Below, one piece after another: positions 11,943 through 30,239 of a stretch of 47,243 nt of DNA. This stretch comes from Pseudonocardiales bacterium (GTDB lineage Bacteria; Actinomycetota; Actinomycetes; Mycobacteriales; Pseudonocardiaceae), in NCBI GenBank assembly GCA_019241525.1, contig JAFAWY010000032.1:1-47243 (forward strand), written 5' to 3'. Numbering within the stretch: the first letter of the stretch is position 1; every line of letters begins with the position of its first letter. The notes under the pieces were generated by a model. It was not told the DNA's origin. It was given only the letters and a program-made list of their open reading frames with translations, and made no database searches. The position numbers and the translations under genes are program-made.

Positions 11943-12334
11943 CCAGCCCTGACCCACAGCGCATCGAGCCCCTGGCCGCAATAAAGCCTGCACGAACAGC
12001 TGCACGCGCGCATCAACCGGTGGCCAGGTGAACTGACGCAACGCTGCTGGCACGCCCCTGAAGCCACGCATAGGGCAACGTGGAGAGCTTGGGTGGTGAC
12101 CAGTAAAACATGGGAAACGCTGTTGACTGAATCACAGTTACCTAACTCACACAGTGAGAACTTAGCAACTATGCTTTAACGATATTTCATGATTGGTCAC
12201 ACCGGTTAAACCTTGCCGTAACAACTGCCGCGCTAGGGTCAGGAATATCGGCGAGGGGCATCCGGTCTTGGGCTGTGTCCAGATTTTCAACCGTTATCAG
12301 TGTTGGATGGCCCCGCCCGGGAGGAAGGATAATC
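11943..12334. other. Long AT-richer leader region before the tandem globin gene
   Basis: There is no convincing gene in this stretch. From about 12110 to 12300 the base composition drops well below that of the neighbours. The region ends in a very strong ribosome binding site (GGGAGGAAGGA at 12319-12329) before ATG 12335. TTGACTG near 12123 could belong to a promoter, but no confident -35/-10 pair can be fixed by eye. The length and composition suggest regulated transcription of the globin gene. Confidence 0.5.
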
Positions 12335-13420
12335 ATGACCGCACAGAACCCGACTGAAGAACTTGTCGAGGTCGAACACTACGACCAATTGGTCACGCCA
12401 GAATTCGCTCCACTCGCCGAGTTTGCAGGATTTGGCGAGTACGAAGTGGTCGCCGTCCAGGAGACCGGTCAAGCCATTGCGGCCACGATCGACCGCATCC
12501 CGGAGGCCATCTCCGACTACCTCATGACCCGTCCGGAATCGGCTCGACTGATGGGCGGATCGGATCCACCAATCAGACAACCGCTGATAAAGGAATGGCT
12601 TGACAGGACGATTGCTAAGCCATTTGATGGCGACCTCGCAGGCTTTGTTCGCCAGATCAGTCACGTAGGATCAAAGGAGGTCACCTTTCCCGGAGTGCAG
12701 ATAGCGCTGCCGCCTCAACTCGTCCTGGCTCTCACCGCTTGGCTGCAAGGAAAGATCCTTACGGCCTTAGGTGAGACGTGTGACGTCGCCACTGTCTCGG
12801 CTGCCGGAGCCGCCTGGATGAACCAGTTCATGCTGCAGCTTGGGATCATGCTGGAGCCGAGTCTCGCCGAACCGGACGGTCCCTTAGGCAAGCATGAAAG
12901 TGCCGAATTCCATCCATACGCGGATTTCGCAGGGTTCGGCCCCAAGGAGGCGTCTATCCTGCGCAGGACCGGCCCACTACTGGGACCGGCGGCCGGAGGC
13001 GTGGTCACTCTCGCATACGATTATTTGCTTTCCCGCCCAGAATCTGCCGGATATTTTCAGGACACTTCGCATCTGGCGCAGCGTAAGATGACACTAAAAG
13101 GGTGGTGGACGCGTACTACGAACCAGCCGATGGATGGCAATTTCCACTCATATATGTCCCGAGTGGCCGATGCCCATGTCAAGGACGGCGGGACACATCC
13201 CAACGTGGTGATCCCGGCTGATTTGACCATCGCACTCATGGGTTGGGTGCAGATGAGAGTCATGACCGCTCTGAACACCGTCTCTCCGGGACCTGACGGT
13301 GATTACGTTTTTGGCAAACTCCCTGAGCCGCCGGAGGCTGCCGAGGTGGGTCAAGCATGGATGCGGATGCTGACCCTGCAACTCGGAATCCTGCTCAAGC
13401 CCTACCTGGCATCTGTCTAG
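12335..13420 (+). CDS. Tandem protoglobin-domain protein
   Basis: The 361-residue protein is two related halves of about 170 residues (roughly 20-178 and 188-357). Each carries the repeats DYLxxRPESA (61-70 and 229-238), WxxRTxxxPxDG (88-99 and 257-268), a P-rich turn, and a helix ending ALxxW(L/V)Q. This pattern fits the protoglobin/globin-sensor fold, which binds haem and O2, CO or NO. In half two, His281 (VADAHVKD) sits where the proximal haem His is expected. In half one the aligned residue is Gly112, and His110 lies two positions earlier. The protein has no kinase, cyclase or HTH output and no signal peptide, so it is probably a soluble O2/NO binder or sensor. It stands upstream of the hydrogenase island, with its own strong ribosome binding site. 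I am confident of the duplication and fairly confident of the family. Confidence 0.8.
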   Translation: MTAQNPTEELVEVEHYDQLVTPEFAPLAEFAGFGEYEVVAVQETGQAIAATIDRIPEAISDYLMTRPESARLMGGSDPPIRQPLIKEWLDRTIAKPFDGDLAGFVRQISHVGSKEVTFPGVQIALPPQLVLALTAWLQGKILTALGETCDVATVSAAGAAWMNQFMLQLGIMLEPSLAEPDGPLGKHESAEFHPYADFAGFGPKEASILRRTGPLLGPAAGGVVTLAYDYLLSRPESAGYFQDTSHLAQRKMTLKGWWTRTTNQPMDGNFHSYMSRVADAHVKDGGTHPNVVIPADLTIALMGWVQMRVMTALNTVSPGPDGDYVFGKLPEPPEAAEVGQAWMRMLTLQLGILLKPYLASV

Positions 13421-13819: not shown

Positions 13820-14563
13820 TCAAGGCAGACGGACGCGCAACCACCCGTACCAGTCGGCGACACCGTCGCCGGTTGTCGCGGACAGCTGAAGGACCTCGAC
13901 GCCCGGATTCGCCCGCCGAGCACCGTCCAGGAAATCCTCGATATCGAATCTCACGTACGGCAACAAGTCGATTTTGTTGAGCAGCACCAAGTCAGCGGCG
14001 CGGAACATCTGCGGATACTTCCGCGGTTTCTCGGCACCCTCAGTGACTGACGTGATCACGACACGGGCCTGTTCCCCCAGGTCGAACAAAGCCGGGCAGA
14101 CCAAGTTTCCTACGTTCTCGATCAAGACCACTGAGCCTTCCGGGGGGTCTAGGGTCTGCAACCCACCGGCAAGCATCTTCGCGTCCAGATGGCATCCCGA
14201 CCCGGTGTTGATCTGGACTGCCGGGGCGCCGGTGGCGCGGATCCGATCGGCGTCGAGAACCGTTTCCTGATCGCCTTCCACGACAGACACCCGCAGTTCG
14301 GAGCCCAATTCTCGAATGGTGCGCTCGAGCAACGTGGTCTTGCCTGCTCCAGGTGAGCTCATCAAGTTCACGGCAAGGATGCTGCGTTCGGCCAACCACT
14401 TGCGGTTGAGCTCGGCAAGTGCGTCATTGCGGGCCAGCACGGCCTGCTCGAGGGTGACGGTCCGGGTGTGCGAGTGCCCGTGGCCGTGTTCGTGTTGGTG
14501 CTCGTGGTCATGCTCATGAGGTTCAAGGATGGTCTCGCCGGAGCAGCCACACGTTGCGCACAT
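13820..14563 (-). CDS. hypB: Hydrogenase nickel-incorporation GTPase HypB
   Basis: HypB is a GTPase that, with HypA, inserts nickel into the large subunit of [NiFe]-hydrogenase. In the 247-residue product, an N-terminal MCATCGCSG high-affinity metal site is followed by a His-rich stretch (about residues 16-32, 9 His) that may store Ni or Zn. The G domain has Walker A SSPGAGKTT, switch-type VVEGDQETVLDADRI, the metal-site region GSGCHLDAKM, and LNKIDLLPY for guanine recognition. The ATG at 14563 overlaps the hypA stop (TGATG), so A and B are coupled. The two form a short leftward operon divergent from hypF. Confidence 0.97.
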   Translation of the reverse strand: MCATCGCSGETILEPHEHDHEHQHEHGHGHSHTRTVTLEQAVLARNDALAELNRKWLAERSILAVNLMSSPGAGKTTLLERTIRELGSELRVSVVEGDQETVLDADRIRATGAPAVQINTGSGCHLDAKMLAGGLQTLDPPEGSVVLIENVGNLVCPALFDLGEQARVVITSVTEGAEKPRKYPQMFRAADLVLLNKIDLLPYVRFDIEDFLDGARRANPGVEVLQLSATTGDGVADWYGWLRVRLP

Positions 14564-14895
14564 CAGGCCATTACCTCAACTTCCCGGATTTTGAGTTCTT
14601 CTCCCGCGAGGAGTTCGCGGTTTGCACTACCGCACTCGCACAGAACCAGCAGATCATTGAGCGCGAATTCTGCGCCGCAGTCCCGGCACCGTGCTCTTCC
14701 CGTGGGTTGGATTATCTCCAATGACGCTCCTTCGAGCGGGGTGCCCTCGGTAATAAGATCGAAGCAGAACCGGACCGAATCAGCTACTACACCAGACAGC
14801 GTGCCGATCTCCAGACAGATTCGGCGTATCTGTGCATCACCCATTCGATCGCACACCGCATGGACCACGCTCTGCGTGATCGCCATTTCGTGCAA
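14563..14895 (-). CDS. hypA: Hydrogenase nickel-incorporation protein HypA
   Basis: HypA carries Ni to the hydrogenase large subunit. The protein is 110 residues. The N terminus must be Met-His-Glu, since His2 is the Ni ligand of the family. The sequence TTG-CAC-GAA-ATG-GCG at 14895 gives exactly MHEMAITQ, and it has AGGAGG seven bases upstream. An upstream GTG would break the Ni site and sits too close to the ribosome binding site, so TTG is the start. The zinc motif is CRDCGAEF plus CECGSAN. The stop overlaps hypB. Confidence 0.96.
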   Translation of the reverse strand: MHEMAITQSVVHAVCDRMGDAQIRRICLEIGTLSGVVADSVRFCFDLITEGTPLEGASLEIIQPTGRARCRDCGAEFALNDLLVLCECGSANRELLAGEELKIREVEVMA

Positions 14896-14969
14896 GTGCA
14901 CCCCTCCTCGGTCGTGCACCCAGTCCAGTCCCCGTGCGGGGATCTTGTCAAGGGCGGGAGAATCCTTCT

Positions 14970-17237
14970 GTGCAGCACAGTATCCGAGTTGGAGTGCGGG
15001 TCGAAGGCGTCGTGCAAGGCGTGGGGTTCCGCCCGTACGTTCACGGCCTTGCGCACCGTTTTGGGCTATCCGGCCGGGTCGGCAACGACACGGCCGGCGT
15101 GTTCATGGAGATCGAGGGAGCCGAGCAGGCCGTGAGCGAGTTTCTCGCCACGTTGCCAGCGCAGGCGCCACCGCTGGCGGTCATCGAGCAGGTGCGGACC
15201 CATCTCCTGGCTCCGACCGGGGAGCCGGGTTTTCACATTGTGTCCAGCCACGCCGCTGGGCGGCGCGATACCTTGATCTCTGCAGATACCGCTACCTGCG
15301 CGGATTGCCTGCGCGAGATGGCCGATCCAGCCGACCGCCGCTTCGAGTACCCCTTTACCAACTGCACCAATTGCGGTCCGCGATTCACGATTGTGCGCGA
15401 CGTGCCCTATGACCGGCTGTTCACGACGATGGCCCCGTTCGAGATGTGCCAGGCCTGCTCCCGTGAATACCACGATCCCGCCGACCGGCGCTTTCATGCC
15501 CAGCCGGTGTGTTGCCCGGCTTGCGGGCCCCGGCTGCGGCTGATCGACGCCAATGGTGCTGAGTTGCCCGGTGAGCCAATCGCCGCGGCCGCGGAACTGC
15601 TGAGGGCTGGAGTGGTGCTGGCGGTCAAGGGGCTTGGCGGCTTCCACGTCGCGGCGCTGGCCGCCGATGCGGTCGCGACCGCTGAGTTGCGGGCGCGCAA
15701 GCACCGCGAAGACAAGCCATTTGCGGTGATGGTGGCCGATCTGGATGCTGCACGGCAACTTTGCGAGATCGATCCGGTGGGGGAGCAGGTGCTGTCCGGG
15801 CGGCGGCGGCCGGTGGTGTTGCTGACCAAACGCCCCGACGCGCCCGTGGCGCCCGCCGTCGCACCTGGCAACCGCAATCTGGGCCTGATGTTGCCCTACA
15901 CCCCACTGCACCACCTGCTGCTGCGCGATACCGCCGCGCCGATCGTGCTCACCAGCGGCAACATCTCCGACGAGCCGATCGCCTACCAGGATGACGATGC
16001 CCGCCAGCGGTTGACCGGGATCGCGGACGCTTACCTGACTCATAACCGGGCGATCCACATGCGAACCGACGACTCAGTGGTGCGGGTATTCCGCGGTGCC
16101 GAACTGCCTGTGCGCCGGTCCCGCGGCTACGCCCCCGAGCCGCTGACTCTCGCGCAACCGGTGCCTTGCCCGATTCTGGGCTGCGGCGCCGAACTGAAGA
16201 GTACTTTTTGCCTGGCTCGCGGCCGGCACGCCTTTATCTCCCACCACATCGGTGATCTGGAGAACTATGAGACGCTGCGTTCGTTCACCGAGGGCGTAGA
16301 GCATTTCCGTCGTCTTTTCGATATCACGCCGGAAATAGTGGCGCACGACCTGCACCCGGAGTACCTGTCCACCAAATACGCTGTGGACCTGGCTGATGTG
16401 GAGCTGGTGGGCGTGCAGCACCACCACGCGCATATCGCCTCCTGCCTGGCTGATAACCGGGAGGTTGGCCCGGTGCTAGGAGTCGCTTTTGACGGAACGG
16501 GCTATGGCAGCGATGGCACCTTGTGGGGTGGCGAATTCTTACTGACTGACCTCACAAGATTCCAGCGCATGGCGCATCTCGTTCCGGTCCCGCTACCCGG
16601 TGGCACCGCAGCTATCCGGCAACCCTGGCGGATGGCGGCTTCCTACCTCGGTTCCGACGCGCCGCAAGACCTCATCCAGCGCAACGCTAAACACTGGGAT
16701 GCGGTACTGGCGATGGCTTCCCGGGGGGTGAACTCCCCGATGACGTCCAGTGCCGGACGCCTGTTCGATGCGGTCGCCGCGATCCTGGGGATCCGCGACT
16801 CGATCAATTACGAGGGCCAGGCCGCAGTGGAGCTCGAACAGCGAGCCGACCTCACGGAGCTCGGTAGCTATTCCGCCTCCATCACCGAGGGCGCCCCGCT
16901 GCAGGTACACGGCGTAGATCTGGTGCAGGCCGTGGTGGCCGACCTCCGAGCGGGCGTAACCCCGGAGGCGATCGCCACCCGGTTTCACCACGGTCTCGCC
17001 GATACCATCGTGCGGGTCTGCCTGATGCTGCGAGATATCACAGGCATCGATGTCGCCGCGCTGTCCGGCGGAGTCTTCCAGAACGTGCTGCTGCTCGAGC
17101 GCACCGTGGCCGCCCTGGAGAACGTGGGTTTCCGCGTCCTCACCCATTCCCGCGTGCCTCCCAACGACGCCGGTATCAGCCTCGGCCAGGTCGCCGTCGC
17201 CGCCGCAACCGCGCAGTCTGGATGCAGAACGCGGTAA
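14970..17237 (+). CDS. hypF: Carbamoyltransferase HypF
   Basis: HypF converts carbamoyl phosphate to carbamoyl-AMP and passes the carbamoyl group to HypE, the source of the CN ligands of the NiFe site. The 755-residue protein has four parts in order: acylphosphatase domain (VEGVVQGVGFRPYVHGLA near residues 9-27), a double zinc finger (CADC...CTNCG, CQAC...CCPACG), a YrdC-like domain (AVKGLGGFHVAALAAD) and a Kae1-like domain (HDLHPEYLSTKYA, HHHAHIASCLADN, VAFDGTGYGSDGTLWGGEF, ALSGGVFQN). The GTG at 14970 with GGGAG at 14956-14960 places the acylphosphatase domain at the expected N terminus. It is divergent from hypAB, with 74 bases between holding both promoters. Confidence 0.97.
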   Translation: MQHSIRVGVRVEGVVQGVGFRPYVHGLAHRFGLSGRVGNDTAGVFMEIEGAEQAVSEFLATLPAQAPPLAVIEQVRTHLLAPTGEPGFHIVSSHAAGRRDTLISADTATCADCLREMADPADRRFEYPFTNCTNCGPRFTIVRDVPYDRLFTTMAPFEMCQACSREYHDPADRRFHAQPVCCPACGPRLRLIDANGAELPGEPIAAAAELLRAGVVLAVKGLGGFHVAALAADAVATAELRARKHREDKPFAVMVADLDAARQLCEIDPVGEQVLSGRRRPVVLLTKRPDAPVAPAVAPGNRNLGLMLPYTPLHHLLLRDTAAPIVLTSGNISDEPIAYQDDDARQRLTGIADAYLTHNRAIHMRTDDSVVRVFRGAELPVRRSRGYAPEPLTLAQPVPCPILGCGAELKSTFCLARGRHAFISHHIGDLENYETLRSFTEGVEHFRRLFDITPEIVAHDLHPEYLSTKYAVDLADVELVGVQHHHAHIASCLADNREVGPVLGVAFDGTGYGSDGTLWGGEFLLTDLTRFQRMAHLVPVPLPGGTAAIRQPWRMAASYLGSDAPQDLIQRNAKHWDAVLAMASRGVNSPMTSSAGRLFDAVAAILGIRDSINYEGQAAVELEQRADLTELGSYSASITEGAPLQVHGVDLVQAVVADLRAGVTPEAIATRFHHGLADTIVRVCLMLRDITGIDVAALSGGVFQNVLLLERTVAALENVGFRVLTHSRVPPNDAGISLGQVAVAAATAQSGCRTR

Positions 17238-17301: not shown

Positions 17302-18375
17302 TCAGGAATTGCGGGCCCAGGGGGGTGGAGCGGCGCCCCGGTTCATCGACCAGGTCACACCGCCGAGCCGGCCCTCCTGGACGGCCTCCAGAGGCCGCTG
17401 CCGGTAAGACGTGGACAGCTCAGCGGTCGGATCCTGACCCTGGTTCACGATCAGGCAGGGAGTGCGATACGAGCAGCGGGAGCACACCTCTGGCGCTGGG
17501 CTCGGATAGATCTGAAGATCAGGATCCGTGGCGGCAACGACCTCGGCGGCCAGGTCCGCGCCGGCTGCCGCGAGTTCGGCCTCGCTGCGCCGAATCCGGG
17601 TGCGCCGGAAAGATTCGGTGCCCTCGGCATGCAACCGTTCGCCAGAAACCGTGCCGCTGCGGGCATACATCCGGCGATGGCCCACGTGCGGGCGCCCTTG
17701 CGGCACCGGGACCGGGGTGCTCAGTTCTCCGGCGTCTGCACGGATCTCGTTGTAGACCGTGCCCGCGATTTGCATACCCAGATAGAACTGGGGCCATGCC
17801 CAGGCCCAGGCAATAGTCGTTTCGTCGAGTTGGAGTACATCGTGATCGGCCCAAACATCAGTGACCAGCCGATGCTGAACCACCCAATAGGCGTCATCGG
17901 AGTCTATGGCCAGCAGGTCGACCCGACCGCTGAGCCTGACTTCGTCACCGGTGGGAGTCAGTAGGTTGCCGCCAGGCTGCGCCGGGTCCGGGATGTTCAC
18001 CTCGAAGTCAGTGTCCACGCGAATGGGGGTGAACTGATCCACGGTTGGAGCCCACGCGGCGTAGGCGTCGAGCAGTGCATGACCCCGGTCCAGCAACTCC
18101 TGCAACGACGTATCGTCAGCAGCGTGCTCAGACTGGCCGCGTACCGAGCGGTCCAACGCCTGGTGTACCAGCGGCCGCACGATGGTCCGGTCCCATTCCC
18201 ACATTCCAGGGAAGTAGTACACGGCGAGCGCATCGCGCAGTGCCTTCTCGAGATCAATCGAGCCGGGCTGGGCAGTAGTAGGTTCGAGGTTTTGCCGGTT
18301 GGCCGAGCTGAAATCCCATTCCCGGCGGCAACGCTTGAATGCCGTCCGATCGGACGTGTGGAGGCGGTAAACCAT
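17302..18375 (-). CDS. Cas4/AddB-like PD-(D/E)XK-fold Fe-S protein, nuclease site apparently lost
   Basis: The 357-residue product has the layout of iron-staple nucleases: an N-terminal Cys in FKRCRREW (Cys16) and a C-terminal triad C-x2-C-x5-C (Cys298, Cys301, Cys307), which in AddB and Cas4 together hold a [4Fe-4S] cluster. The core RLSGRVDLL (Asp153) followed by a strand WVVQHRL is in the place of G-x-x-D ... VxDYK. So Asp153 is kept, but the next acidic residue is Gln167 and the catalytic Lys is Arg169. The fold is probably intact and the nuclease chemistry doubtful. It lies inside the hydrogenase island, read towards hypF, 141 bases after the preceding small gene. A role as an Fe-S or maturation factor is inference. 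Confidence 0.7.
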   Translation of the reverse strand: MVYRLHTSDRTAFKRCRREWDFSSANRQNLEPTTAQPGSIDLEKALRDALAVYYFPGMWEWDRTIVRPLVHQALDRSVRGQSEHAADDTSLQELLDRGHALLDAYAAWAPTVDQFTPIRVDTDFEVNIPDPAQPGGNLLTPTGDEVRLSGRVDLLAIDSDDAYWVVQHRLVTDVWADHDVLQLDETTIAWAWAWPQFYLGMQIAGTVYNEIRADAGELSTPVPVPQGRPHVGHRRMYARSGTVSGERLHAEGTESFRRTRIRRSEAELAAAGADLAAEVVAATDPDLQIYPSPAPEVCSRCSYRTPCLIVNQGQDPTAELSTSYRQRPLEAVQEGRLGGVTWSMNRGAAPPPWARNS

Positions 18376-18516: not shown

Positions 18517-18849
18517 CTAGTGGGCGTGCGGCCAAGGGTCATCCGGCGACCACCGGCAACGGTCATGTCCCCCTGCCGCCGCGTCCATCTCGGCGAACAG
18601 GTCATCGAAGAATGCTGACAGGTCGTTGCGGTGGTATTCCTGCCACCCGCCGTAGTAAATCCAGGCATCAGGAAGCGATTCATCCGGCGACGGGATGGGC
18701 AGCACACCATCGCCGCCGGTTCGCTTCAGCGCGTAGTTTTCGCCCCGACGTTCGATGTACACAACCTCACCGGGCTCGGGCCAGTCGGCCACGATCTCGG
18801 CAATCAACTCAGTTCGATTCAGCGGACCTCCCGGCAAAGTGGTCAGCAA
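18517..18849 (-). CDS. Uncharacterised small protein at the end of the hyp operon
   Basis: A 110-residue acidic, Trp/Tyr-rich soluble protein (EPGEVVYIERRGENYALKR, DAWIYYGGWQEYHRNDLSAF) with no known catalytic motif. The start given is TTG 18849, which overlaps the end of hypE by 7 bases. A GGGAGG box inside the first codons also allows a start about 10 to 15 codons further in, at CTG or TTG. It is the last gene of the long leftward operon, so a hydrogenase-related role is likely but unknown. The function is not recognised. Confidence 0.65.
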   Translation of the reverse strand: MLTTLPGGPLNRTELIAEIVADWPEPGEVVYIERRGENYALKRTGGDGVLPIPSPDESLPDAWIYYGGWQEYHRNDLSAFFDDLFAEMDAAAGGHDRCRWSPDDPWPHAH

Positions 18850-20039
18850 ATCCGGGGCAACGGATCGCCGACAAGTAGATCAATAATTCGAGTGCCACCG
18901 AAACCGGTCTTGAGCATGACTAGTCCGGGCGGATCCTCAACGATGCGTCCCACCGCTGTTGCTGAGGCACCGAGAGGATGGCCCTGCAGCGCCGCCACCG
19001 CGGCATCTGCTGCGCCTGGATCGACGATCGCCACAATGCGTCCCTCGCAGGCGACGTAAAGCGGGTCGATGCCCAGGATTTCGCACGCTCCGCGGACTTC
19101 CGGGCGCACGGGAACCGAGTCCTCATCGACCACCACGGCCACCCCGGCGGCGGTGGCGACTTCGTTGAGGATCGTGGCAACCCCACCCCGGGTGGCATCG
19201 CGCATTGCCCGGACATCCGGACCTACTGCGTCAAGCAGTCCCCGGACCAGCTCGTGCACCGGTGCGGTGTCGGAGACCAGCTCAGCGTCAAGGTCCAGCT
19301 CCCCGCGCTCCAGCATCACGGTGATGCCGTGGTCGCCTACCGGTCCGGACACGATCACGACATCGCCCGGGCGAGCTGTGGACACACCCAGTGTCAAGCC
19401 CCCAGGGATCAATCCGACTCCGGCGGTGTTGATGTAACACCCGTCTGCTTTGCCTCGCTGCACAACCTTGGTGTCACCGGTGACGATGGACACTCCAGCT
19501 GCGGCCGCAGCCGCGGCCATCGACTCAACGATCCGCCGCAGATCCTCAACCGGGAATCCCTCCTCCAAGATGAACCCGGCCGACAGATGGGCCGGGCAGG
19601 CCCCGGAGACGGCCAGGTCGTTGACCGTGCCGTTGACCGCGAGGTCTCCGATGTTGCCTCCCGGGAAGAACAACGGAGACACCACGTAGGAATCCGTGGT
19701 AAAGGCAAGCCGGGAATCACCGGCGGTCAGTGTCGCGGCGTCTTCCAATGGCGCTAGTAACGGATTGCGGAAGGCGTCGAGGAAGATTGCCTCGATCAGC
19801 GATTGGGTGGCCTTACCGCCGGCACCGTGCGCGAGGGTGATGAGCTTTTCCCGCACCCGAGGACGCGCCCGGCGGGCACGTTCGATGCGTTCCAGCACCA
19901 ACTGCTCTCGCCCGCCGTGCTCAGTTCCGGGTTGATGCGTGGGGAAACCGGCATCCTCGTCGTGTTTGGCACTGGCGTGCCCGGCGACGGCCGCTTGCGC
20001 CCAGTTAACCTGCTGCTGGCTGGTGTCCTGGTGGGTCAT
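18843..20039 (-). CDS. hypE: Hydrogenase maturation protein HypE
   Basis: HypE receives the carbamoyl group from HypF on its C-terminal Cys and dehydrates it to a thiocyanate, which supplies CN to iron. The 398-residue protein has the LAHGAGGKATQ nucleotide-binding start and DSYVVSPLFFPGGNIGDLAV. It ends exactly in PRIC, the required C-terminal Cys. The first 55 residues are an unusual Gln/His-rich extension not needed in most HypE. The start ATG 20039 overlaps the hypD stop (TGATG). A downstream start nearer RVREKLITLAHGAGG is possible, but the coupled ATG is favoured. Confidence 0.97.
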   Translation of the reverse strand: MTHQDTSQQQVNWAQAAVAGHASAKHDEDAGFPTHQPGTEHGGREQLVLERIERARRARPRVREKLITLAHGAGGKATQSLIEAIFLDAFRNPLLAPLEDAATLTAGDSRLAFTTDSYVVSPLFFPGGNIGDLAVNGTVNDLAVSGACPAHLSAGFILEEGFPVEDLRRIVESMAAAAAAAGVSIVTGDTKVVQRGKADGCYINTAGVGLIPGGLTLGVSTARPGDVVIVSGPVGDHGITVMLERGELDLDAELVSDTAPVHELVRGLLDAVGPDVRAMRDATRGGVATILNEVATAAGVAVVVDEDSVPVRPEVRGACEILGIDPLYVACEGRIVAIVDPGAADAAVAALQGHPLGASATAVGRIVEDPPGLVMLKTGFGGTRIIDLLVGDPLPRIC

Positions 20040-21184
20040 GCCCTGCTGCTTTCAATACTGACTTCCTGGATCCGCTGGCGGCTGAACCGACCGAAGTTGT
20101 AGTACGCCGCGCAGGCGCCCTCTGAGGAGACCATGCAGGTGCCGATCGGCATCTCAGGCGTGCAGGCGGTGCCGAACACCTTGCATTCCCACGGCTTGAG
20201 CACACCCTTGAGCACCTCGCCGCATTGGCAGGCCTTCGGGTCGGCAACTCGCACCCCGGGCAAGGTGAAACGCCGCTCGGCGTCAAAGGCCGCATACTTT
20301 TCCCGGACCTGCAGCGCGGAATGGGAGATGAAGCCCAGGCCGCGCCACTCGAAGTACGGACGCAGCTCCATCACCTCGGCCACCGCCCGCAGCGCCACCG
20401 TGTTTCCATCCCATGGCACCACCCGGGAATACTGGTTCTCCACTTCGCAGCGGCCCTCAGCCAGCTGCTGCAGCAGCATGTAGACCGACTGCAGGATGTC
20501 CAGCGGCTCGAACCCCGCCGTCACGATCGGCTTGCCGTACTCCGCTGGGATGTACTCATACGGCCGGCAGCCGATGATGGTGGAGACATGGCCGGGACCG
20601 ATAAACCCGTCCAATCGCAGGTCGGGGGAATCCAGGATGGCCTTGATCGCCGGGACGATCATGACGTGGTTGCAAAAGATCGAGAAATTCTCGATACCCT
20701 CCGCTGCCGCCCTTAGCACGGTCATCGCGGTAGACGGCGTGGTAGTTTCCATACCGATCGCCATAAAGATCACATGCTTATCCGGATTCTGCCGGGCGAC
20801 CTTCAGCGCGTCCAGCGGAGAATAGACCATCCGGATATCGGTGCCGGCGGCCGAGGAGTCGAAGAACGATCCGCGCCCGCCGGGCACCCGCATCATGTCG
20901 CCGAAGGATGTCATGATCACATCTGGCTGCTCAGCCAGCGCGATCGCGTCGTCCACTCGACCCATCGGAAGAACGCACACTGGGCAGCCTGGCCCATGCA
21001 CCAGGCTGATGGACTCCGGAAGGTAGTCCTCCAGCCCGTGCTTGTAAATGGTGTGCGTGTGCCCACCACAGACTTCCATGAACTTGTAATGTCGACCCGG
21101 CTCGCACAGCGCCGCGATCTTAGCGGCGAGCGCCCGAGCTTTTTCGGCATCCCGGTATTCATCGACGAATCGCATAGTGCTCAC
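20036..21184 (-). CDS. hypD: Hydrogenase maturation protein HypD
   Basis: HypD is the [4Fe-4S] scaffold on which, with HypC, the Fe(CN)2CO group is assembled. In 382 residues, the invariant MEVCGGHTHTIYKHGL, GPGCPVCVLPMG and MAIGMETTTPSTA motifs are present. The C-terminal cluster ligands are in CQCGEVL, ECKVFGTAC and GTCMVSSEGAC. The length is normal. The start ATG 21184 overlaps the end of hypC by four bases and the stop overlaps hypE, so C, D and E are translationally coupled. Confidence 0.98.
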   Translation of the reverse strand: MSTMRFVDEYRDAEKARALAAKIAALCEPGRHYKFMEVCGGHTHTIYKHGLEDYLPESISLVHGPGCPVCVLPMGRVDDAIALAEQPDVIMTSFGDMMRVPGGRGSFFDSSAAGTDIRMVYSPLDALKVARQNPDKHVIFMAIGMETTTPSTAMTVLRAAAEGIENFSIFCNHVMIVPAIKAILDSPDLRLDGFIGPGHVSTIIGCRPYEYIPAEYGKPIVTAGFEPLDILQSVYMLLQQLAEGRCEVENQYSRVVPWDGNTVALRAVAEVMELRPYFEWRGLGFISHSALQVREKYAAFDAERRFTLPGVRVADPKACQCGEVLKGVLKPWECKVFGTACTPEMPIGTCMVSSEGACAAYYNFGRFSRQRIQEVSIESSRA

Positions 21185-21462
21185 TGCCTTTCGTCAATCC
21201 GCGATTCGAGCAGAGCGGCGATCTCATCCTCGTAGGCCTGACCGATGCCTATCAGGAAGTCCATCGCTGCCTTGGCCTCTTGCTCATCGATCTTGGATAG
21301 CGCGAATCCGACGTGAATCAAAACCCAATCGCCGGGAACGGGCGGGTCATCGGTCAACAGACCGATATTGATCGCTCGCTTGACCCCGCTGACGTCGACC
21401 TTGGCCAGATCAGGCTGATCGGGCAGGATTTCGATCACCTCGCCCGGGATGCCGAGGCACAT
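21181..21462 (-). CDS. hypC: Hydrogenase assembly chaperone HypC
   Basis: A 93-residue HypC/HybG-type chaperone. It begins MCLGIPGEVIEI, so the essential Cys2 that carries the Fe(CN)2CO unit between HypD and the large subunit is present. The OB-like body is followed by VGFALSKIDEQEAKAAMDFL, the usual C-terminal helix. A second, divergent HypC is encoded at 29257-29472; this one is the canonical copy. The gene overlaps hypD by four bases and starts 28 bases after the stop of the small membrane peptide gene. Confidence 0.97.
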   Translation of the reverse strand: MCLGIPGEVIEILPDQPDLAKVDVSGVKRAINIGLLTDDPPVPGDWVLIHVGFALSKIDEQEAKAAMDFLIGIGQAYEDEIAALLESRIDERQ

Positions 21463-21490: not shown

Positions 21491-21604
21491 TTACATCTCG
21501 CTGATCTGCTTGTAGCGAGCCACGTCCTTAGAGACCTGTACCGCTACGCTGGCCAGGCCGATCACTGATCCCCAGAAGACCAGCCGACGCACCAGACGGA
21601 ACAT
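21491..21604 (-). CDS. 37-residue single-pass membrane peptide (DUF6893-like)
   Basis: A 37-codon ORF from ATG 21604 to TAA 21491, preceded by AAGGAAGGAAG on the message. MFRLVRRLV gives a basic N terminus, WGSVIGLASVAVQVS a short membrane helix, and KDVARYKQISEM a charged tail. It lies in another frame over the last 77 bases of the protease gene, between that gene and hypC, in the same operon. The basic-helix-RY...SM pattern resembles the family of very small actinobacterial proteins I recall as DUF6893; this is not checked. It may anchor or stabilise a hydrogenase component at the membrane. Confidence 0.6.
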   Translation of the reverse strand: MFRLVRRLVFWGSVIGLASVAVQVSKDVARYKQISEM

Positions 21605-22094
21605 TCGGTTCACTTCCTTCCTTGTCGGTGAGCAGATCCAAAACCACCCCGACAGCCCTGTCGACAGCTGCGGCGACGGTTGTGGATAACCCGATACCAT
21701 CCTCGGTGCTGGCCGGTTCACAACCGACCAATAGGATCCGTCCCGCGTTGCCGCCGAGGTTTTCCAGCAACGCGAGTACCGCGTCCGGAGTCATCCCGTG
21801 CGCGTCGACAGCCGAGGGCTCGATGCCGGGCACGTCACCGTGGCCGATCTCGAGCACATAAAGCGTTCCAGGCTCGCCGCCGCGGGATACAGCGTCGAGC
21901 AGGATCGTGGTGGCCGGGGCCATATCGAGGAGATCGTAGGCCAGGTGCATGCCACGGATCCCGTAGTCAGCCACCCGCACGCCGTCGGGCAGCGTCTCGG
22001 CGGTCAGGCGGCGGGCCAGCTCGCAACCGAACGCGTCATCGCTGAGAAAGATATTGCCGATGCCCGCCACCATGGTGGTCACGGTTGCGGTCAT
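21528..22094 (-). CDS. Hydrogenase maturation protease (HyaD/HybD/HycI family)
   Basis: This endopeptidase removes the C-terminal tail of the hydrogenase large subunit after Ni insertion. In the 188-residue product, GIGNIFLSDDAFGCELARRL carries metal ligand Glu25, LLDAVSRGG carries Asp67 and AVDAHGMTPDAVL carries His99, the three nickel-sensing ligands known from E. coli HybD. The C-terminal 40 residues, after RAVGVVLDLL, are an atypical low-complexity tail; this is also the part that overlaps the 37-residue peptide gene. The start ATG 22094 overlaps the stop of the upstream gene. The target should be HhyL. Confidence 0.95.
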   Translation of the reverse strand: MTATVTTMVAGIGNIFLSDDAFGCELARRLTAETLPDGVRVADYGIRGMHLAYDLLDMAPATTILLDAVSRGGEPGTLYVLEIGHGDVPGIEPSAVDAHGMTPDAVLALLENLGGNAGRILLVGCEPASTEDGIGLSTTVAAAVDRAVGVVLDLLTDKEGSEPNVPSGASAGLLGISDRPGQRSGTGL

Positions 22095-23392
22095 GACTGG
22101 GCTCCGAGCGGCCTGAGCTCCTCCGGGTCGAAGTAGCGGAACCGTCCGTGCGCGGACGAGATCTCCGCGCCTGGATCATCGTCAATGGTGACCGCCACGT
22201 GAGTATTGCCATCGACGTCGAGCAATACTGCTTCGACGGTGGCCGTGCGCCCTTCGAGGAACATGTCCTGCGCATCGGCCCGCCGCGATCCTGGCTTGAG
22301 CAGAACCTTGCTTCCCTTAGCCACCTCGATCCCGGCGATCGTGACACTGTCGGTGTCGGGGTTTACCGAGGCATCCGCGCCGGGGTCCCACCACGGGGTA
22401 CCCGGCGTGGTGATCGTCTCCACAGGATCCGGCTCTTTGCGGGTTCCCGGGGTCTCTCCGAGATACCGGATCGCGCCATGCAGCTTGTCGAGCATCTCGG
22501 GGGGCATTGAGTCGACGCGATCCATCAGCTTGCGGGCTCGCTCGTCGGTAGCCCGTGCTTCGGCCTTCTCCTCATCGGTGAGGGTCATGGTGCGCAGCGT
22601 GAGGATCTCGTCGATCTCGGTGCCGTCGTACAACTCGCCGGCACTCTCCGGCGCGATCTGCGGGTAGTCGTAGAGGATGATCGGCGAGATCAGCAACGCA
22701 TCCCGGCTGCCCGCTTCGCCGACCATCACCGGCCAGATCCGTTCATTGCGGCAGCTCTCCACAGCCGGTTTCGCCCACTCTGGAGGATCGAGCAGGGAGA
22801 TGAACTCACCGTCGGTGACGGCGAGCACGATATGGGCAGCGATCAACGAGTGGCGTAGGGCCAGGTTCCGGCTTGCCTGCGGATCATCCCACTGCGCGGT
22901 ATTGACCAGTTCGACCGTGACCTTCATGACCCCGTAAGGGCCTTCCAGCACCTGCGCAGACACCCGGACCTCGCCGTGTAGCGGCCAGCGCTCCCGGGTG
23001 ATGCCGTCGGTGGTCTCCGTGCCACCGGGAATCGTGACCGGAACCACCTGCTTGGTGTCCACCAGCTCCGATACCGGCAGTACTGCGTCGACCTCGTGTT
23101 CGACAGCCTCATCGAACTCGGGCACTAGTCCGTCTCCACCGCTGCGGTGCTGGAGCTGCAGGAATCGCAGGCGCAGATGCAGTACCGGGTCGGTGCCGGG
23201 CTCCAGCAAGCATTCGCTGTGAGAGGCGGCATGCTCGCCGTGCCCTGCGGAGGCGTAGGCGGGTGGCACCAGCACTCCCCATTGCCACCGGACTTGGTTC
23301 TTACGTGCCGACGCCCGGTAGGGATAGAGCAGGTAGCCCTCGTAGAGGACGGCGTCGGCGATCTGGCGTGCGACGTCCATCGGGGCTGTCAT
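22091..23392 (-). CDS. Conserved-looking hydrogenase-cluster protein of unknown function, 433 aa
   Basis: A 433-residue soluble protein with no motif I can assign to an enzyme. The N-terminal ADAVLYEGYLLYPYRASARK and VRWQWGVLVPPAY look like a strongly constrained segment. The middle is rich in charged beta-strands and carries few cysteines. The C-terminal 70 residues (KGSKVLLKPGSRRADAQDMF through GRFRYFDPEELRPL) look like a separate small beta-barrel domain. It is coupled to both neighbours by overlaps: 4 bases with the upstream 217-aa gene and TGATG with the protease gene. Similar proteins are, to my memory, typical of group 1h hydrogenase clusters, so a maturation or electron-transfer role is likely but unproven. 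Confidence 0.85.
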   Translation of the reverse strand: MTAPMDVARQIADAVLYEGYLLYPYRASARKNQVRWQWGVLVPPAYASAGHGEHAASHSECLLEPGTDPVLHLRLRFLQLQHRSGGDGLVPEFDEAVEHEVDAVLPVSELVDTKQVVPVTIPGGTETTDGITRERWPLHGEVRVSAQVLEGPYGVMKVTVELVNTAQWDDPQASRNLALRHSLIAAHIVLAVTDGEFISLLDPPEWAKPAVESCRNERIWPVMVGEAGSRDALLISPIILYDYPQIAPESAGELYDGTEIDEILTLRTMTLTDEEKAEARATDERARKLMDRVDSMPPEMLDKLHGAIRYLGETPGTRKEPDPVETITTPGTPWWDPGADASVNPDTDSVTIAGIEVAKGSKVLLKPGSRRADAQDMFLEGRTATVEAVLLDVDGNTHVAVTIDDDPGAEISSAHGRFRYFDPEELRPLGAQS

Positions 23393-24042
23393 GATTTGCC
23401 CTCCGCAGTGCGTTCCCGGGCCGCCTCCAGCACGGCGATGACAGCGTCATCCCAGGTAGGTATGGCACGTGCGGCCCGAAACTCGGCGAGTGCGTTGATG
23501 GTGTCGCGACGCAGCCGCAGCCACCCACTATTCGGGAAGTGAATATCCATCATCTCGCGCCATCGTTCGACCGGCATCCGGTACCGGCACTCGCAGTGCC
23601 AGGGCACTTGCTCAATCCACATGCCGTCCTTGCCGTCCCCGAAGATGGTTCCGCTGAACAGCAGGATGAACGGGACCTCCCCGTCCTCAAGGGCATGGAA
23701 ATATCGGCCTGTGGTGACCTCCATGTCGTAACTGCATGGCACGGAAATGTTGACTTCGGTGCTGCCGGTAAAGCTGGGGACCGTCGTCGACGTGTTGGCG
23801 AATTGGAACGGCTTGAGCGAATCGCCCCAGCGTTCGCGCCCACCGAACAGCTCGAGTAGTCGCTCGCCTTCTTGTTCCTTATAACCGCGCCGGCCTGGCT
23901 CGACTCTAATCTGACACCGCAAGGCGATGGCTCGCACCTTATCCTCGGTTGCCGCAGAGATCTTCAGCCGGAACAGCAGCGTCGGAGCCGCGGCGTAGCG
24001 TTCGGGCTGCACATCAAGGCAGGTGAAAGACAGTTCAGTCAT
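23389..24042 (-). CDS. Hydrogenase-cluster protein of unknown function, 217 aa (DUF6084-like)
   Basis: A 217-residue product starting at ATG 24042 (MTELSFTCLDVQPERYAAAP), which overlaps the upstream stop by 8 bases (ATGACTGA). The open frame runs further upstream but is only a shadow. The protein looks beta-rich in its first part (PTLLFRLKI, IALRCQIRVEP), with LKPFQFANTSTTVPSFTGST and DMEVTTGRYFHALEDGEVP in the centre and a helical end. CECRYRMP is the only Cys pair. I recall the name DUF6084 for such proteins in Streptomyces hydrogenase clusters, unverified. Function unknown. Confidence 0.83.
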   Translation of the reverse strand: MTELSFTCLDVQPERYAAAPTLLFRLKISAATEDKVRAIALRCQIRVEPGRRGYKEQEGERLLELFGGRERWGDSLKPFQFANTSTTVPSFTGSTEVNISVPCSYDMEVTTGRYFHALEDGEVPFILLFSGTIFGDGKDGMWIEQVPWHCECRYRMPVERWREMMDIHFPNSGWLRLRRDTINALAEFRAARAIPTWDDAVIAVLEAARERTAEGKS

Positions 24043-24679
24043 TGGTGACCGCCACCTGTTCGCTGCGCTCCCGCAGACCGGCGAAGAATTTGTGGATCTC
24101 CGCCCAAGCCTGCTCTCCGCCGTCGAAACCCTGCCAATGCATGCGAACCAGACCGACCAGTTGGTAGCAAGCGTCGATCGGGACCGCGAAAAACTCGAAG
24201 CCGCTCTCTCCCTTATACACCAACAGCGCCTCGACATCGGGCTGCAGGTCAGCGAATTCTGGAATCGCGGCGAGCAGGTCGGTCCAGGCTTCTAGGGACA
24301 GCAGCGATTCAGTGGCTCCCGCTGGACTCGGGTAGAACGCGACGGTACGATCCAGCGCGCTGTTTTGGAAAAAGAACGCCGTCGCCACCGGGATCTCCAT
24401 CGAGTCCCATGTTGCCTCGGCGAGCGGCACCTTGGCGGCGTAACGGTAATTTTCGGGAACCGCTTTGTACCGCCCCCCGCCAGCGCCTTGCTGGGTGAAC
24501 AACAGGGCGCAGGGACGGCACGTGCACATCAGACCGCGGTGCTCGATATCGACCACATGTCCGTGCCAGTCATCGATCGGTACGGCGCACATCTCGCACC
24601 GTTCGCCCTGTTGTTCGTTCGGAGCAGATTGCGGTGGGGAAGCGGCGCTTCCAACGAAGCGCCGCAGGCCCCCCTTCAT
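24035..24679 (-). CDS. Cys-motif hydrogenase-cluster protein, 214 aa (DUF5947-like)
   Basis: The 214-residue product has an N-terminal metal-binding pattern: C-x2-C at 28/31 (CEMCAVPI) and C-x-C-x2-C at 52/54/57 (CTCRPCALLF). This could hold zinc or an Fe-S cluster. The rest is a mixed alpha/beta domain with Trp- and Phe-rich segments (GFEFFAVPIDACYQLVGLVR). It starts at ATG 24679, overlapping the NifU-like gene stop (TGATG), and overlaps the next gene by 8 bases. I recall DUF5947 for this type; that name is from memory. A role as electron carrier or assembly factor beside the NifU-like protein is inference. Confidence 0.83.
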   Translation of the reverse strand: MKGGLRRFVGSAASPPQSAPNEQQGERCEMCAVPIDDWHGHVVDIEHRGLMCTCRPCALLFTQQGAGGGRYKAVPENYRYAAKVPLAEATWDSMEIPVATAFFFQNSALDRTVAFYPSPAGATESLLSLEAWTDLLAAIPEFADLQPDVEALLVYKGESGFEFFAVPIDACYQLVGLVRMHWQGFDGGEQAWAEIHKFFAGLRERSEQVAVTND

Positions 24680-25587
24680 GACACCGCCTGAGCGGGAACC
24701 GCGATCCGGACCCCGCCGTTCTCGGTGAGAAGTGGCAGCGGGTCCAGGTGTGCTTCCGCTGTCGATGACGCCTGGCTGACGTCGCTCCAGCCACGACCAG
24801 CCCTGACCACGTCATAACGTTGCGTGCAGCCGGGACAGGTCAACAAAGCGCCCGAGAGTTTCCCACCGGCCAGTCCGGAGCCGCAGGCTGGGCAGCGGTC
24901 GGTGTAGGCGTACAGACTGCCGGCCACGTTGCACACCACCGCGGCCGTGTCGGCGACCAGTTTGGGAACCACCTGGCCTTGACCGAGGTTCTCGATCCCG
25001 TCGATTTCCACCCAGGTCGACGCAGGTGCCTCTGGCTGCTTGCTCACCTGGGCCAGTGGCAACAGGGTGCGCCCCTCGGGCGCGGACAGGCCCGAAGCCG
25101 ATTCGGGCACCATCCCCTCTACCTCTACCTTAGTGACCTCGGGGGCAACGTCTTCGATTCCTTTCTCGATAGCCATCTTCACGGTGAGCGCGGAGGACGG
25201 GCAGCCGTCACAGCTGCCCGCCAACCGCAACCGCACCGTGCCGTCGTCGTCGAGCCCGAGGTACTCGACGTCGCCAGCGTGCGATCCGAGGTAGGGCCGA
25301 ACCCGATCGAGGGCAGCGAGAACGCGTTCCTCGGTGCTCTGCGGGTGCAGGTCGTGCAGCACCAGCAGGCCGGCCACTGCCTTGTCAGCGAGCAGTGGAG
25401 CGGCGGCCCGCTCGTCGAGTAGTTCCATGATGCGGGCCAGGCCTGCACCGTAGAAGTCGACGAGCAGACCAACTAGCTCCTCGGCTCGCCCGGCGATCTC
25501 GGGGTCGGGGACCGAGGCGAACTCAGCGAGTAGCGCCTCGACCCTTTCCCCTACCGCCTGGATATCCGTTGTGTTGCTAACAGGCAC
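24676..25587 (-). CDS. NifU-C-terminal domain fused to a four-Cys Rieske-like domain
   Basis: A 303-residue product. The first 80 residues are helical. Residues about 85-160 are an Nfu/NifU C-terminal-type domain with GSCDGCPSS (Cys126, Cys129) for a shared [4Fe-4S] cluster. Residues about 190-265 look like a Rieske-fold segment (VVCNVAGSLYAYTDRCPAC), but the two Rieske histidines are absent and the ligands read C-x2-C (232/235) and C-x2-C (251/254). This suggests a rubredoxin-like Fe or a zinc site. The gene sits just 3 bases after hhyL, start GTG 25587, so its product is probably made in proportion to the large subunit. It may feed electrons or clusters to the hydrogenase. Confidence 0.85.
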   Translation of the reverse strand: MPVSNTTDIQAVGERVEALLAEFASVPDPEIAGRAEELVGLLVDFYGAGLARIMELLDERAAAPLLADKAVAGLLVLHDLHPQSTEERVLAALDRVRPYLGSHAGDVEYLGLDDDGTVRLRLAGSCDGCPSSALTVKMAIEKGIEDVAPEVTKVEVEGMVPESASGLSAPEGRTLLPLAQVSKQPEAPASTWVEIDGIENLGQGQVVPKLVADTAAVVCNVAGSLYAYTDRCPACGSGLAGGKLSGALLTCPGCTQRYDVVRAGRGWSDVSQASSTAEAHLDPLPLLTENGGVRIAVPAQAVS

Positions 25588-25590
25588 GAC

Positions 25591-27390
25591 TCAGCCACCA
25601 GTCGTGAATGAGTGTGGCGTGTGCAGGCGTTGCATCTCCTTGCCATTTCCGAGGTACATGTGCACACCGCAGGGCAGGCACGGGTCGAAGCTGCGTACGG
25701 CCCGCATGATGTCGATGCCCTTGAAGTTCTCCGGGGGGTTCTCCTCGAAGATCGGCGTGTTCTGCACGGCGTCTTCGTAGGGGCCCGGTGTCCCGTAGAT
25801 GTCGCGGACGCTGCCGTTCCACGGAGTGGGTGGGTACGGGTGGTAGTTGGCGATCTTCCCGTCCCGGATCACCATGTGGTGCGACAGCACACCGCGGACC
25901 GCCTCGGTCCACCCGCAGCTGATCGCTTCCTTGGGCACCTTGAACGGCTCCCAGGTCTTGGTGCGACCAGCACGGACCTCGGCCAGGGCCTTCTCCACGA
26001 AGTGCAGCGCCATCGCGGCCTGGTAGGCCTGGAAGAAGCTGCGCGCCCGGTTGCGTTCGATCGCGTTCGACAGCGGCTTACCCTGCTTGTCGTACGGGAT
26101 CTTCCACTCGAAGGAGACCTCCGGCTTCGTCATCGTCCTTGGCAGGTTGACGATGATGCTCTTGCCGGTGGCCTTGACCGTGCCCGTGTCCACCAGGCCG
26201 GACAGTGCCGTCGGCCACAACCGGGCCAGCGGCCCACCACCGGTGTCGAGGGCAAGGTGGTCCGTGCCGTCGAACCACCGTGGCGACATGGTCCAGCTGT
26301 ACGGGCCATTGAAGTCACGCTTTTGCGGCCGCGGGATGGTGTGCTGGTTCCACGGGTGCCTCCGGTCCACCGGGTTACCCAGCGGGTCCCGATCGACGAA
26401 GATCTCCTGGCCCTCCCAGTCCTCGTAGTAGGAGTGGCCGAGCAGGATCCGCAACCCGAGGTTGATCTTCACCAGGTCGTTGGTGACCAGCTTTCCGTCC
26501 ACCACCACACCGGGGGTGACGAACATCTTGCGACCCCAGTTGGTCATGTTGCGGTAGTTGAAGTCGCAGTGCTCCGGGTCGTTCTGAGCGCCCCAGCAAC
26601 CCAGTAGCACCCGGCGCCGACCAACTTCTTCGTAACCAGGCAGGGCGTCGTAGAAGAAGGTGAACAGGTCTTCGTGCAGCGGCACGACCCGCTTCATGAA
26701 TTCCACGTACCGCATGAGGCGGGTGTAGTAATCGGTGAACAGCTGGTGGGTGGCCACACAGCCGATACCACCCGGGTACAGCGTGGAGGGGTGCACGTGG
26801 CGACCCTCCATGAGGCAGAACATCTCACGCGTGTAGCGGGAGACCTGCAGTGCCTCACGGTAGAACTCACCCGCCAGCGGGTTGAGCGCCCGCATGATGT
26901 CGCCGATGGTCTTGTATCCGTGAGCCTCTTCGTTCGGCGCCGCAGTGCGGTTGGCCTGATCAAGCACGCCGGGGTTGGTCTCGGCGACCATCTTCTCGCA
27001 GTAGTCGACCCCAACCAGGTTCTCCTGGAAGATGTTGTGGTCGAACATGTACTCGGCTGCTTCACCCAGGTTGATGCACCACTCGCCGAGGTGTGGCGGG
27101 ACGACACCGTAAGCCATGTTCTGGTTGTAAACCGAACAGGTGGCGTGGTTGTCCCCGCAGATACCACAGATGCGACTGGTGATGAAGTGGGCGTCGCGAG
27201 GGTCCTTGCCCTTCATGAAGATGGAGTAGCCACGGAACACCGAGGACGAGCTGTGGCACTCAGCGACTCGCTTGTTCGCGAAGTCAATCTTGGTGTAGAT
27301 GCCAAGGCTACCGACGATCCGGGTGACTGGATCCCAGACCATCTCGGTGAGTTGGCCTGTGGTGGAGCTGTGCCTTGCTGTGGTTGTCAT
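25591..27390 (-). CDS. hhyL: [NiFe]-hydrogenase large subunit, group 1h (HhyL)
   Basis: The 599-residue catalytic subunit oxidises H2 at a Ni-Fe(CN)2CO centre. The N-terminal ligand pair is in SRICGICGDNHATC (Cys75, Cys78). The C-terminal pair is in SFDPCLPCGVH (Cys571, Cys574). The protein continues for 22 residues after His577, the tail removed by the HyaD-type protease. Large stretches such as GYSIFMKGKDPRDAHFITS match the oxygen-tolerant actinobacterial (group 1h, formerly group 5) class rather than the periplasmic group 1d type. The start ATG 27390 is 32 bases after the hhyS stop. It is co-transcribed with hhyS, the NifU-like gene and the hyp genes. Confidence 0.97.
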   Translation of the reverse strand: MTTTARHSSTTGQLTEMVWDPVTRIVGSLGIYTKIDFANKRVAECHSSSSVFRGYSIFMKGKDPRDAHFITSRICGICGDNHATCSVYNQNMAYGVVPPHLGEWCINLGEAAEYMFDHNIFQENLVGVDYCEKMVAETNPGVLDQANRTAAPNEEAHGYKTIGDIMRALNPLAGEFYREALQVSRYTREMFCLMEGRHVHPSTLYPGGIGCVATHQLFTDYYTRLMRYVEFMKRVVPLHEDLFTFFYDALPGYEEVGRRRVLLGCWGAQNDPEHCDFNYRNMTNWGRKMFVTPGVVVDGKLVTNDLVKINLGLRILLGHSYYEDWEGQEIFVDRDPLGNPVDRRHPWNQHTIPRPQKRDFNGPYSWTMSPRWFDGTDHLALDTGGGPLARLWPTALSGLVDTGTVKATGKSIIVNLPRTMTKPEVSFEWKIPYDKQGKPLSNAIERNRARSFFQAYQAAMALHFVEKALAEVRAGRTKTWEPFKVPKEAISCGWTEAVRGVLSHHMVIRDGKIANYHPYPPTPWNGSVRDIYGTPGPYEDAVQNTPIFEENPPENFKGIDIMRAVRSFDPCLPCGVHMYLGNGKEMQRLHTPHSFTTGG

Positions 27391-29260: not shown

Positions 29261-29472
29261 CCCGGGCCCCCGATAAGCGCGATCGCCTCCTTGGCATGAA
29301 CGAGGATTTCGTCTCCGACCTTCGCTGACACGAACGCGACGCTTACTTCCTCGATGGTTGATCCGGTATCCACCATCGCCAAGTCGTTGGGCAGTAGCTC
29401 GACAACGCGGACTGCGACAGCTTGGTCCGAGCAGGTGATGCACACATCGCCATGGCATTCGGGAATGGTCAT
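29257..29472 (-). CDS. Divergent second HypC-like protein
   Basis: A 71-residue product with the body of a HypC/HupF chaperone (AVAVRVVELLPNDLAMVDTG, EVSVAFVSAKVGDEILVHA). The first residues read MTIPECHGDVCITCSD, so Cys is at 6, 11 and 14 instead of the invariant Cys2 of MCL. It overlaps the upstream SIS gene stop and the downstream SIS gene start by four bases each. As it is placed before hhyS and hhyL, it may be the large-subunit-specific chaperone, as HypC paralogues often are, or a metal-binding variant. Confidence 0.82.
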   Translation of the reverse strand: MTIPECHGDVCITCSDQAVAVRVVELLPNDLAMVDTGSTIEEVSVAFVSAKVGDEILVHAKEAIALIGGPG

Positions 29473-30089: not shown

Positions 30090-30239
30090 GCCGCACACCT
30101 CCCGACCCTGGTTGGTCATGCACGCGAGTCACATCACCATAGGGGTGCTGTGATCCGGGGCACAAGGCCCCCTGTCCAGTTGGTTCATCTGGATTTCACC
30201 ACGCGGACTCGACAACCTACTGAGCCCCCGCAACCCCAC

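Follow-up and report, generated by a model that had tools for sequence, protein, structure and literature searches.

The minus-strand gene at positions 17302 to 18375 of the window, by which we mean the whole analysed stretch of 47,243 nucleotides, encodes what appears to be a degenerate iron-staple PD-(D/E)XK (RecB-like) protein, here called P0001. Together with a small neighbouring protein, orf110, it could form an optional accessory module of the group 1h (Hhy, atmospheric-H2) [NiFe]-hydrogenase, acting as an assembly helper built on a non-cleaving scaffold. We give this reading a probability of roughly 0.45. According to the available text of PMC6883350, much of the atmospheric H2 that soils take up is consumed by group 1h hydrogenases. 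If the reading is true, the module would add an unassayed maturation or control step to these O2-exposed enzymes, and it would show a purpose of the iron-staple cluster without cutting. No description of the P0001/orf110 module was found in the covered part of the open-licence PMC literature.

The gene pair lies within a hydrogenase island, whose genes in the window are the following:
13820-14563, minus strand: HypB (TIGR00073)
14563-14919, minus strand: HypA (PF01155)
14934-17237, plus strand: HypF, convergent with the module (TIGR00143)
17302-18375, minus strand: P0001 (Pfam, AlphaFold2 model, 53-row alignment, dN/dS)
18517-18822, minus strand: partner protein orf110, about 101 aa, with a probable CTG start and GGAGGT upstream
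18843-20039, minus strand: HypE (TIGR02124)
20036-21184, minus strand: HypD (PF01924)
21181-21462, minus strand: HypC (PF01455)
21528-22094, minus strand: hydrogenase maturation protease (PF01750)
22091-23392, minus strand: 433-aa protein with no Pfam or NCBIfam family at cut-off
23389-24237, minus strand: DUF6084 protein, marker of the group 1h cluster (PF19562)
24035-24679, minus strand: DUF5947 protein (PF19372)
24676-25587, minus strand: HhyE-like NifU/Rieske protein (PF01106 and PF00355)
25591-27390, minus strand: hydrogenase large subunit (best PDB match 5aa5 chain C, HofG, 1041.6 bits)
27423-28457, minus strand: hydrogenase small subunit (PF14720 and PF01058)

Judged by its large subunit together with the DUF5947, DUF6084 and HhyE-like proteins, the hydrogenase of the window is of the actinobacterial, group 1h type, to which 5aa5 also belongs. 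DUF6084 proved to be a sound marker of this cluster, being accompanied by an HhyE-like protein in 42 and by DUF5947 in 43 of 46 loci, some of which represent the same place twice. In the window, orf110 and P0001 are the last genes of a run that is read in one direction and starts with the structural genes, so the pair may share the structural-gene transcript.

The frame of P0001 starts with ATG at 18375, ends with its stop at 17302 and encodes 357 aa. In regard to its fold, Pfam PF12705 (PDDEXK_1) matched the protein with 28.2 bits, its curated cut-off being 22, and at E <= 0.01 the same family was also matched by 15 of 33 aligned relatives. An AlphaFold2 model built from 33 relatives (pLDDT 83.4, pTM 0.81) gave 13 PDB fold matches with E <= 0.001, the best of them AdnA (E 2.8e-8), AddB (2.5e-7) and ACE1 (3.5e-7), with Cas4 SSO0001 also present. 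Neither profile nor single-sequence searches of PDB chains with P0001 gave a relevant match, and NCBIfam held no model for it, with no Cas4 or AddB model matching at E <= 10. Because searches of PDB sequences miss these nucleases, the fold claim rests on the prediction, the Pfam match and the order of motifs. The predicted fold is thus closest to the iron-staple RecB-like nucleases (AdnA, AddB, ACE1, Cas4), as the earlier note had proposed, and is not unrelated to PD-(D/E)XK. Since the sole PADLOC match, to DruK, stayed below threshold (E 0.011), a defence role was dropped.

The residues on which the earlier note had built its proposal (C16, C298, C301, C307, D153, and Q167 and R169 within VVQHRL) are all found at those positions in the protein:
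18328-18330, minus strand: C16, presumed first cluster ligand (53-row alignment)
17917-17919, minus strand: D153 of GRVD, the retained motif-II Asp (53-row alignment)
17863-17889, minus strand: strand YWVVQHRLV, residues 163-171, with Q167-H168-R169 at the D-x-K position (alignment; coordinates by arithmetic)
17455-17484, minus strand: C298-x2-C301-x5-C307, presumed remaining cluster ligands (53-row alignment)

The four cysteine columns hold Cys in 52, 49, 49 and 49 of 53 family rows, and otherwise a gap in a partial row. Lys at position 169 is present in none of the 52 rows that include both D-x-K positions, and no homologue with an intact D-x-K was found. The earlier view that D-x-K is altered therefore stands for the Lys; the acidic residue is kept in 23 of 52 rows as (D/E)-H-R, so that only the Lys is lost throughout the family. 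The other 29 of 52 rows have one of Q, R, T, V, I, K, S and H at position 167, and in P0001's own group of 11 rows the strand is uniformly Q-H-R. The motif-II Asp is present in 44 of 53 rows and lost in 9, the position of the motif-I His is Arg (R47) in P0001 and His in 18 of 53 rows, and a Q-x3-Y motif was not seen in residues 180-195 of P0001. Judged by sequence, P0001 thus appears no longer to have the canonical catalytic residues (motif-I His, D-x-K, Q-x3-Y), while it keeps the four cluster cysteines. In a tree of 46 of the 53 rows (seven were left out as partial or duplicate), with the motif columns excluded and the root not known, the acid state of the D-x-K strand changes at least five times. 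The gene itself is not decaying and is under purifying selection, with dN/dS of 0.132 at dS 0.36 between P0001 and its relative in L012, and of 0.12-0.16 in three further pairs, where dS is near or above 1 and thus partly saturated.

AdnA, AddB, Cas4, ACE1 and Exo5 resemble P0001 in predicted fold, in the C + C-x2-C-x5-C arrangement and in the motif-II Asp, whereas P0001 differs from such iron-staple nucleases by the absence of D-x-K, of the motif-I His, of Q-x3-Y and of a helicase domain, PDDEXK_1 being the only Pfam domain in its 357 aa. The same genome encodes intact iron-staple nucleases (L112, which is AdnA, L113 and L114) with the same cysteine pattern as P0001; unlike P0001, they retain D-x-K as VDVK or VDYK, as well as the Q...Y helix. 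Profile alignment of P0001 with this AdnA placed Q-H-R opposite D-V-K, in a weak match of 38% probability that covers the strand, and comparison with another nuclease of the genome (P0003) covered the C-terminal Cys region only, at 22% probability. In the accessible part of PMC5704561, all Cas4 proteins are described as keeping their motifs. A non-enzymatic role like the one proposed for P0001 is known for an iron-staple nuclease in TP1 of TTV1, which, in the available text of PMC4625639, is an inactivated Cas4 derivative with an acidic residue of motif III replaced. As far as that text goes, TP1 lost its Fe-S site by truncation, whereas P0001 keeps its Cys set.

Alternatively, P0001 could still be a nuclease, using an altered site (D153, H168, R169 and other acids such as D158, D184/E185 and E210) on an unusual substrate. 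H168 is the sole residue of its column (52 of 52 rows), D158 is present in 52 of 53 rows, N209-E210 and D184-E185 are nearly invariant (41 rows), and D/E-H-R is retained in 23 of 52; furthermore, one clade of the family adjoins an Exo_endo_phos gene, and a reviewer's remark in the part of PMC4625639 consulted holds that nucleases with a changed Glu can be active. These observations are opposed by the non-acidic residue at position 167 in 29 of 52 rows, by the loss of D153 in 9 of 53 and by a Lys that never occurs, and we regard continued cleavage by P0001 as improbable. The 23 of 52 rows that keep D or E nevertheless count against the accessory reading, since activity is possible in that part of the family.

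The association of the P0001 family with the hydrogenase was followed in two draws of genomes. In the draw from the order, the family was found in 8 of 397 genomes and the DUF6084 marker in 66 of 397, and all eight carriers possessed the marker (Fisher 4.0e-7; 2.4e-6 when the window's own genome is left out). Likewise, the draw from the phylum gave 6 of 396 genomes with the family, 37 of 396 with DUF6084 and the marker in 6 of 6 carriers (4.5e-7, or 4.8e-6 without the window's own genome), where carriers G409 and G424 rest on fragments, the window's own genome is counted in both draws, and diverged relatives may be missed in either, since scoring was limited to five candidates from the first look at each genome (30 in the profile search). 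Counting by genus, which is the only correction for kinship among carriers and a rough one, gave 3.8e-4 for the order and 8.9e-6 for the phylum. When the 65 remaining DUF6084 genomes of the order were searched with a profile, the same 7 carriers were returned. Among 20 genomes reached through named loci, the marker was present in 17, two of the matches being partial and both accompanied by HypD; the three genomes without it, none of which has HypD, are those of L035 from the first clade, where orf110 and the P0001-family gene are paired in an assembly of 1.8 Mb, and of L047 and L050 from the second clade. Conversely, 58 of the 66 Hhy genomes in the order draw and 31 of the 37 in the phylum draw lack the P0001 family, and the fact that Hhy works without the module in most Hhy genomes speaks against the accessory reading.

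Such a distribution could also arise without any functional tie, if the module merely shared a soil life-style with Hhy or were carried along with it by transfer. The carriers are actinobacteria of soil or of rare lineages, and many are MAGs; the module occurs in a minority of Hhy genomes, as would then be expected. As a control for life-style, form I CO dehydrogenase was above its cut-off in 27 of 150 order genomes; DUF6084 was present in 9 of these 27 and in all 7 module carriers other than the window's own genome (0.0021; two genomes belong to both groups), so that a trace-gas life-style alone accounts for no more than this 9 of 27. Mere coincidence is also at odds with the five or more gene orders that join the module to hyp or nickel genes, and hitchhiking fails as an explanation because many carriers have the module away from the hydrogenase. 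The absence of a functional tie is thus very unlikely, and the data support a real tie between the P0001 family and the hydrogenase.

This tie is not one of strict physical linkage. Of the 42 family loci, 27 belong to the first clade, which includes P0001, and 15 to a second clade marked by E-H-R. The DNA around the family gene contains hydrogenase or hyp genes at 15 of these loci and in 3 of 13 further stretches, while 12 of the 27 first-clade loci and 10 of the 13 further stretches are unlinked, meaning that no hyp or hydrogenase gene occurs in the DNA covered, which at several loci includes little flanking sequence. The description of the gene as lying inside a hydrogenase island therefore holds for the window and reflects a real tie; the family as a whole is not confined to such islands, given the unlinked first-clade loci and a second clade that also occurs in two genomes lacking both DUF6084 and HypD. 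Neighbour clustering at the unlinked copies gave no common gene besides orf110, and reductase, transporter and SDR genes found nearby were each present in few loci.

Where linkage exists, it takes several forms. In the window, in L012 and its close kin and in L021, HypE, orf110 and P0001 face HypF, whereas L023 has HypE followed by the family gene without orf110. The order is HypA-HypB-family gene-orf110 in L031, HypA-HypB-family gene in L048, and orf110-family gene-HypA-HypB in L134 and L135. In L133 the family gene stands between the nickel transporter NicO and HypA, which is cut by the contig end, and in L046 between HhyS and HypF, so that one neighbour there is a structural gene; L056 and L005 are also hyp- or nickel-linked. 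The identities of HypA, HypB and HypF at selected loci were confirmed by family models. Immediate neighbours of linked copies are thus mostly maturation or nickel genes (HypE/HypF, HypA/HypB, NicO), in several arrangements.

Because of this recurrent placement beside HypA/HypB, HypE/HypF and NicO, maturation or metal supply is favoured over electron transfer. The earlier note had suggested that P0001 might be an electron carrier, a cluster donor or a redox sensor for the hydrogenase, and the first of these has fared worst. A carrier of electrons from the hydrogenase to the respiratory chain would fit four conserved cysteines and an association with Hhy; it would hardly be missing from the 58 of 66 and 31 of 37 Hhy genomes counted above, nor lie mostly beside maturation or nickel genes, and HhyE is already a candidate acceptor in the available text of PMC6883350. 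We consider this role the least probable of all those weighed here. Iron-staple clusters are, moreover, mainly structural.

HhyE also serves as a comparison in its own right. The available part of PMC6883350 describes it as a NifU-like Fe-S protein required for H2 oxidation in M. smegmatis, and it is, like P0001, an Fe-S motif protein tied to the group 1h hydrogenase. HhyE is nearly universal beside DUF6084 (42 of 46) and is encoded with the structural genes, whereas the module is optional. A precedent for an accessory that does not occur in every high-affinity H2 oxidiser is provided by HypX, a protein unrelated to P0001. HypX is an optional aerobic helper of [NiFe]-hydrogenase maturation that employs formyl-CoA chemistry. 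The available text of PMC4767420 says that some high-affinity H2 oxidisers lack it and that it forms a transcription unit by itself.

In the mechanism that we propose, an Fe-S cluster would staple the N- and C-terminal ends of the non-cleaving scaffold, and this scaffold, together with orf110 and its C/H tail, would assist hydrogenase assembly at a step around HypA/B (nickel) and HypE/F (Fe-ligand) under aerobic conditions. We infer a bound cluster, the absence of cleavage and a maturation step for P0001. A more specific version, held only tentatively and with less confidence than the general reading, is that a nuclease fold was exapted as a metal-handling factor, with the cluster kept and the cutting site lost several times, and that orf110, which has an invariant Cys and a C-terminal His, is its metal-binding partner, the two providing a second, optional route of nickel or Fe-ligand insertion.

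The main competitor is a redox- or iron-responsive regulator, in which the dead nuclease would bind DNA or RNA and the cluster would tune hyp/hhy expression to O2, iron or nickel. In its relatives the scaffold binds nucleic acid, and, in the accessible text of PMC4625639, one Cas4 derivative has become a DNA-binding nucleocapsid protein. P0001 and its family share invariant arginines (R18, R27, R257, R258 and R263), and the optional distribution and the loci away from the hydrogenase would suit a trans-acting factor. A recognisable DNA-binding domain is absent from orf110, though, and the several linkages are to maturation genes and not to one common promoter region. Such a regulator is rather unlikely, yet more credible than the other alternatives; we rank a maturation factor first and a nucleic-acid-binding regulator second, and the results do not decide between them.

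The partner protein orf110 was found beside the P0001-family gene in 20 loci, upstream in 18 and downstream in 2. Two of the 22 loci initially collected (L023 and L048) were rejected as wrong frames over hypE. The C-terminus of orf110 is conserved as D-R-C-R-W-x2-D-x-P-W-P-x-x-H-stop, and the 20 aligned copies share R25, W54, D74, A77, E78 and a tail of D-R-C-R-W...P-x-P-x-x-H, with His as the last residue of every one of them. Neither Pfam nor NCBIfam matched orf110 when it was scanned from the TTG frame at 18849, and fold search of its model (pLDDT 81.6) returned nothing from the PDB at E <= 0.001. Superoxide dismutase look-alikes of this model were weak (E about 0.6) and were not used. A search covering 80 of 97 known Hhy-positive genomes found orf110 in 8, all of them among the 13 carriers of the P0001 family and none among the 67 others (Fisher 4.4e-8). 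In L022 the orf110 and P0001-family frames overlap by GTGA. Beyond this pairing of genes, we presume that the two proteins also pair physically.

The 15 loci of the second clade were assigned by their place in the tree, or because they had the shortened match or the context of that clade. Thirteen loci of this type (L002, 2544-3266, and 12 others), one of them from the window's own genome, share a downstream gene, which was Exo_endo_phos (PF03372) in both of the two tested. This unnamed pair of an E-H-R gene and Exo_endo_phos was also found in carriers' genomes. Eleven named assemblies hold one copy of each clade, while that of L051 showed the second clade only, the assemblies being judged by their record titles. 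It was considered whether the second clade beside Exo_endo_phos is the ancestral active form; the tree on which this would have to be read is unrooted. Extra, more diverged family copies with D-H-R, I-H-R and E-H-R were seen in G485 and G580 (L061-L064), one of them split across two frames.

Several further features of the hydrogenase loci were observed. The 433-aa protein, which has no name, adjoins DUF6084 in 45 of the 46 DUF6084 loci, making it a constant component of the group 1h cluster. Behind the small subunit of the window, two adjacent SIS-domain (phosphoheptose isomerase-like) genes are present at 28481-30119 on the minus strand, likewise in L031 and L046. HypB is adjoined by a gene at 12275-13420 on the plus strand for a protoglobin protein, which combines a C-terminal PF11563 domain with about 200 further N-terminal residues and may serve the island as a sensor of O2 or CO; similar protoglobin genes occur in the hydrogenase loci L012, L015 and L020.
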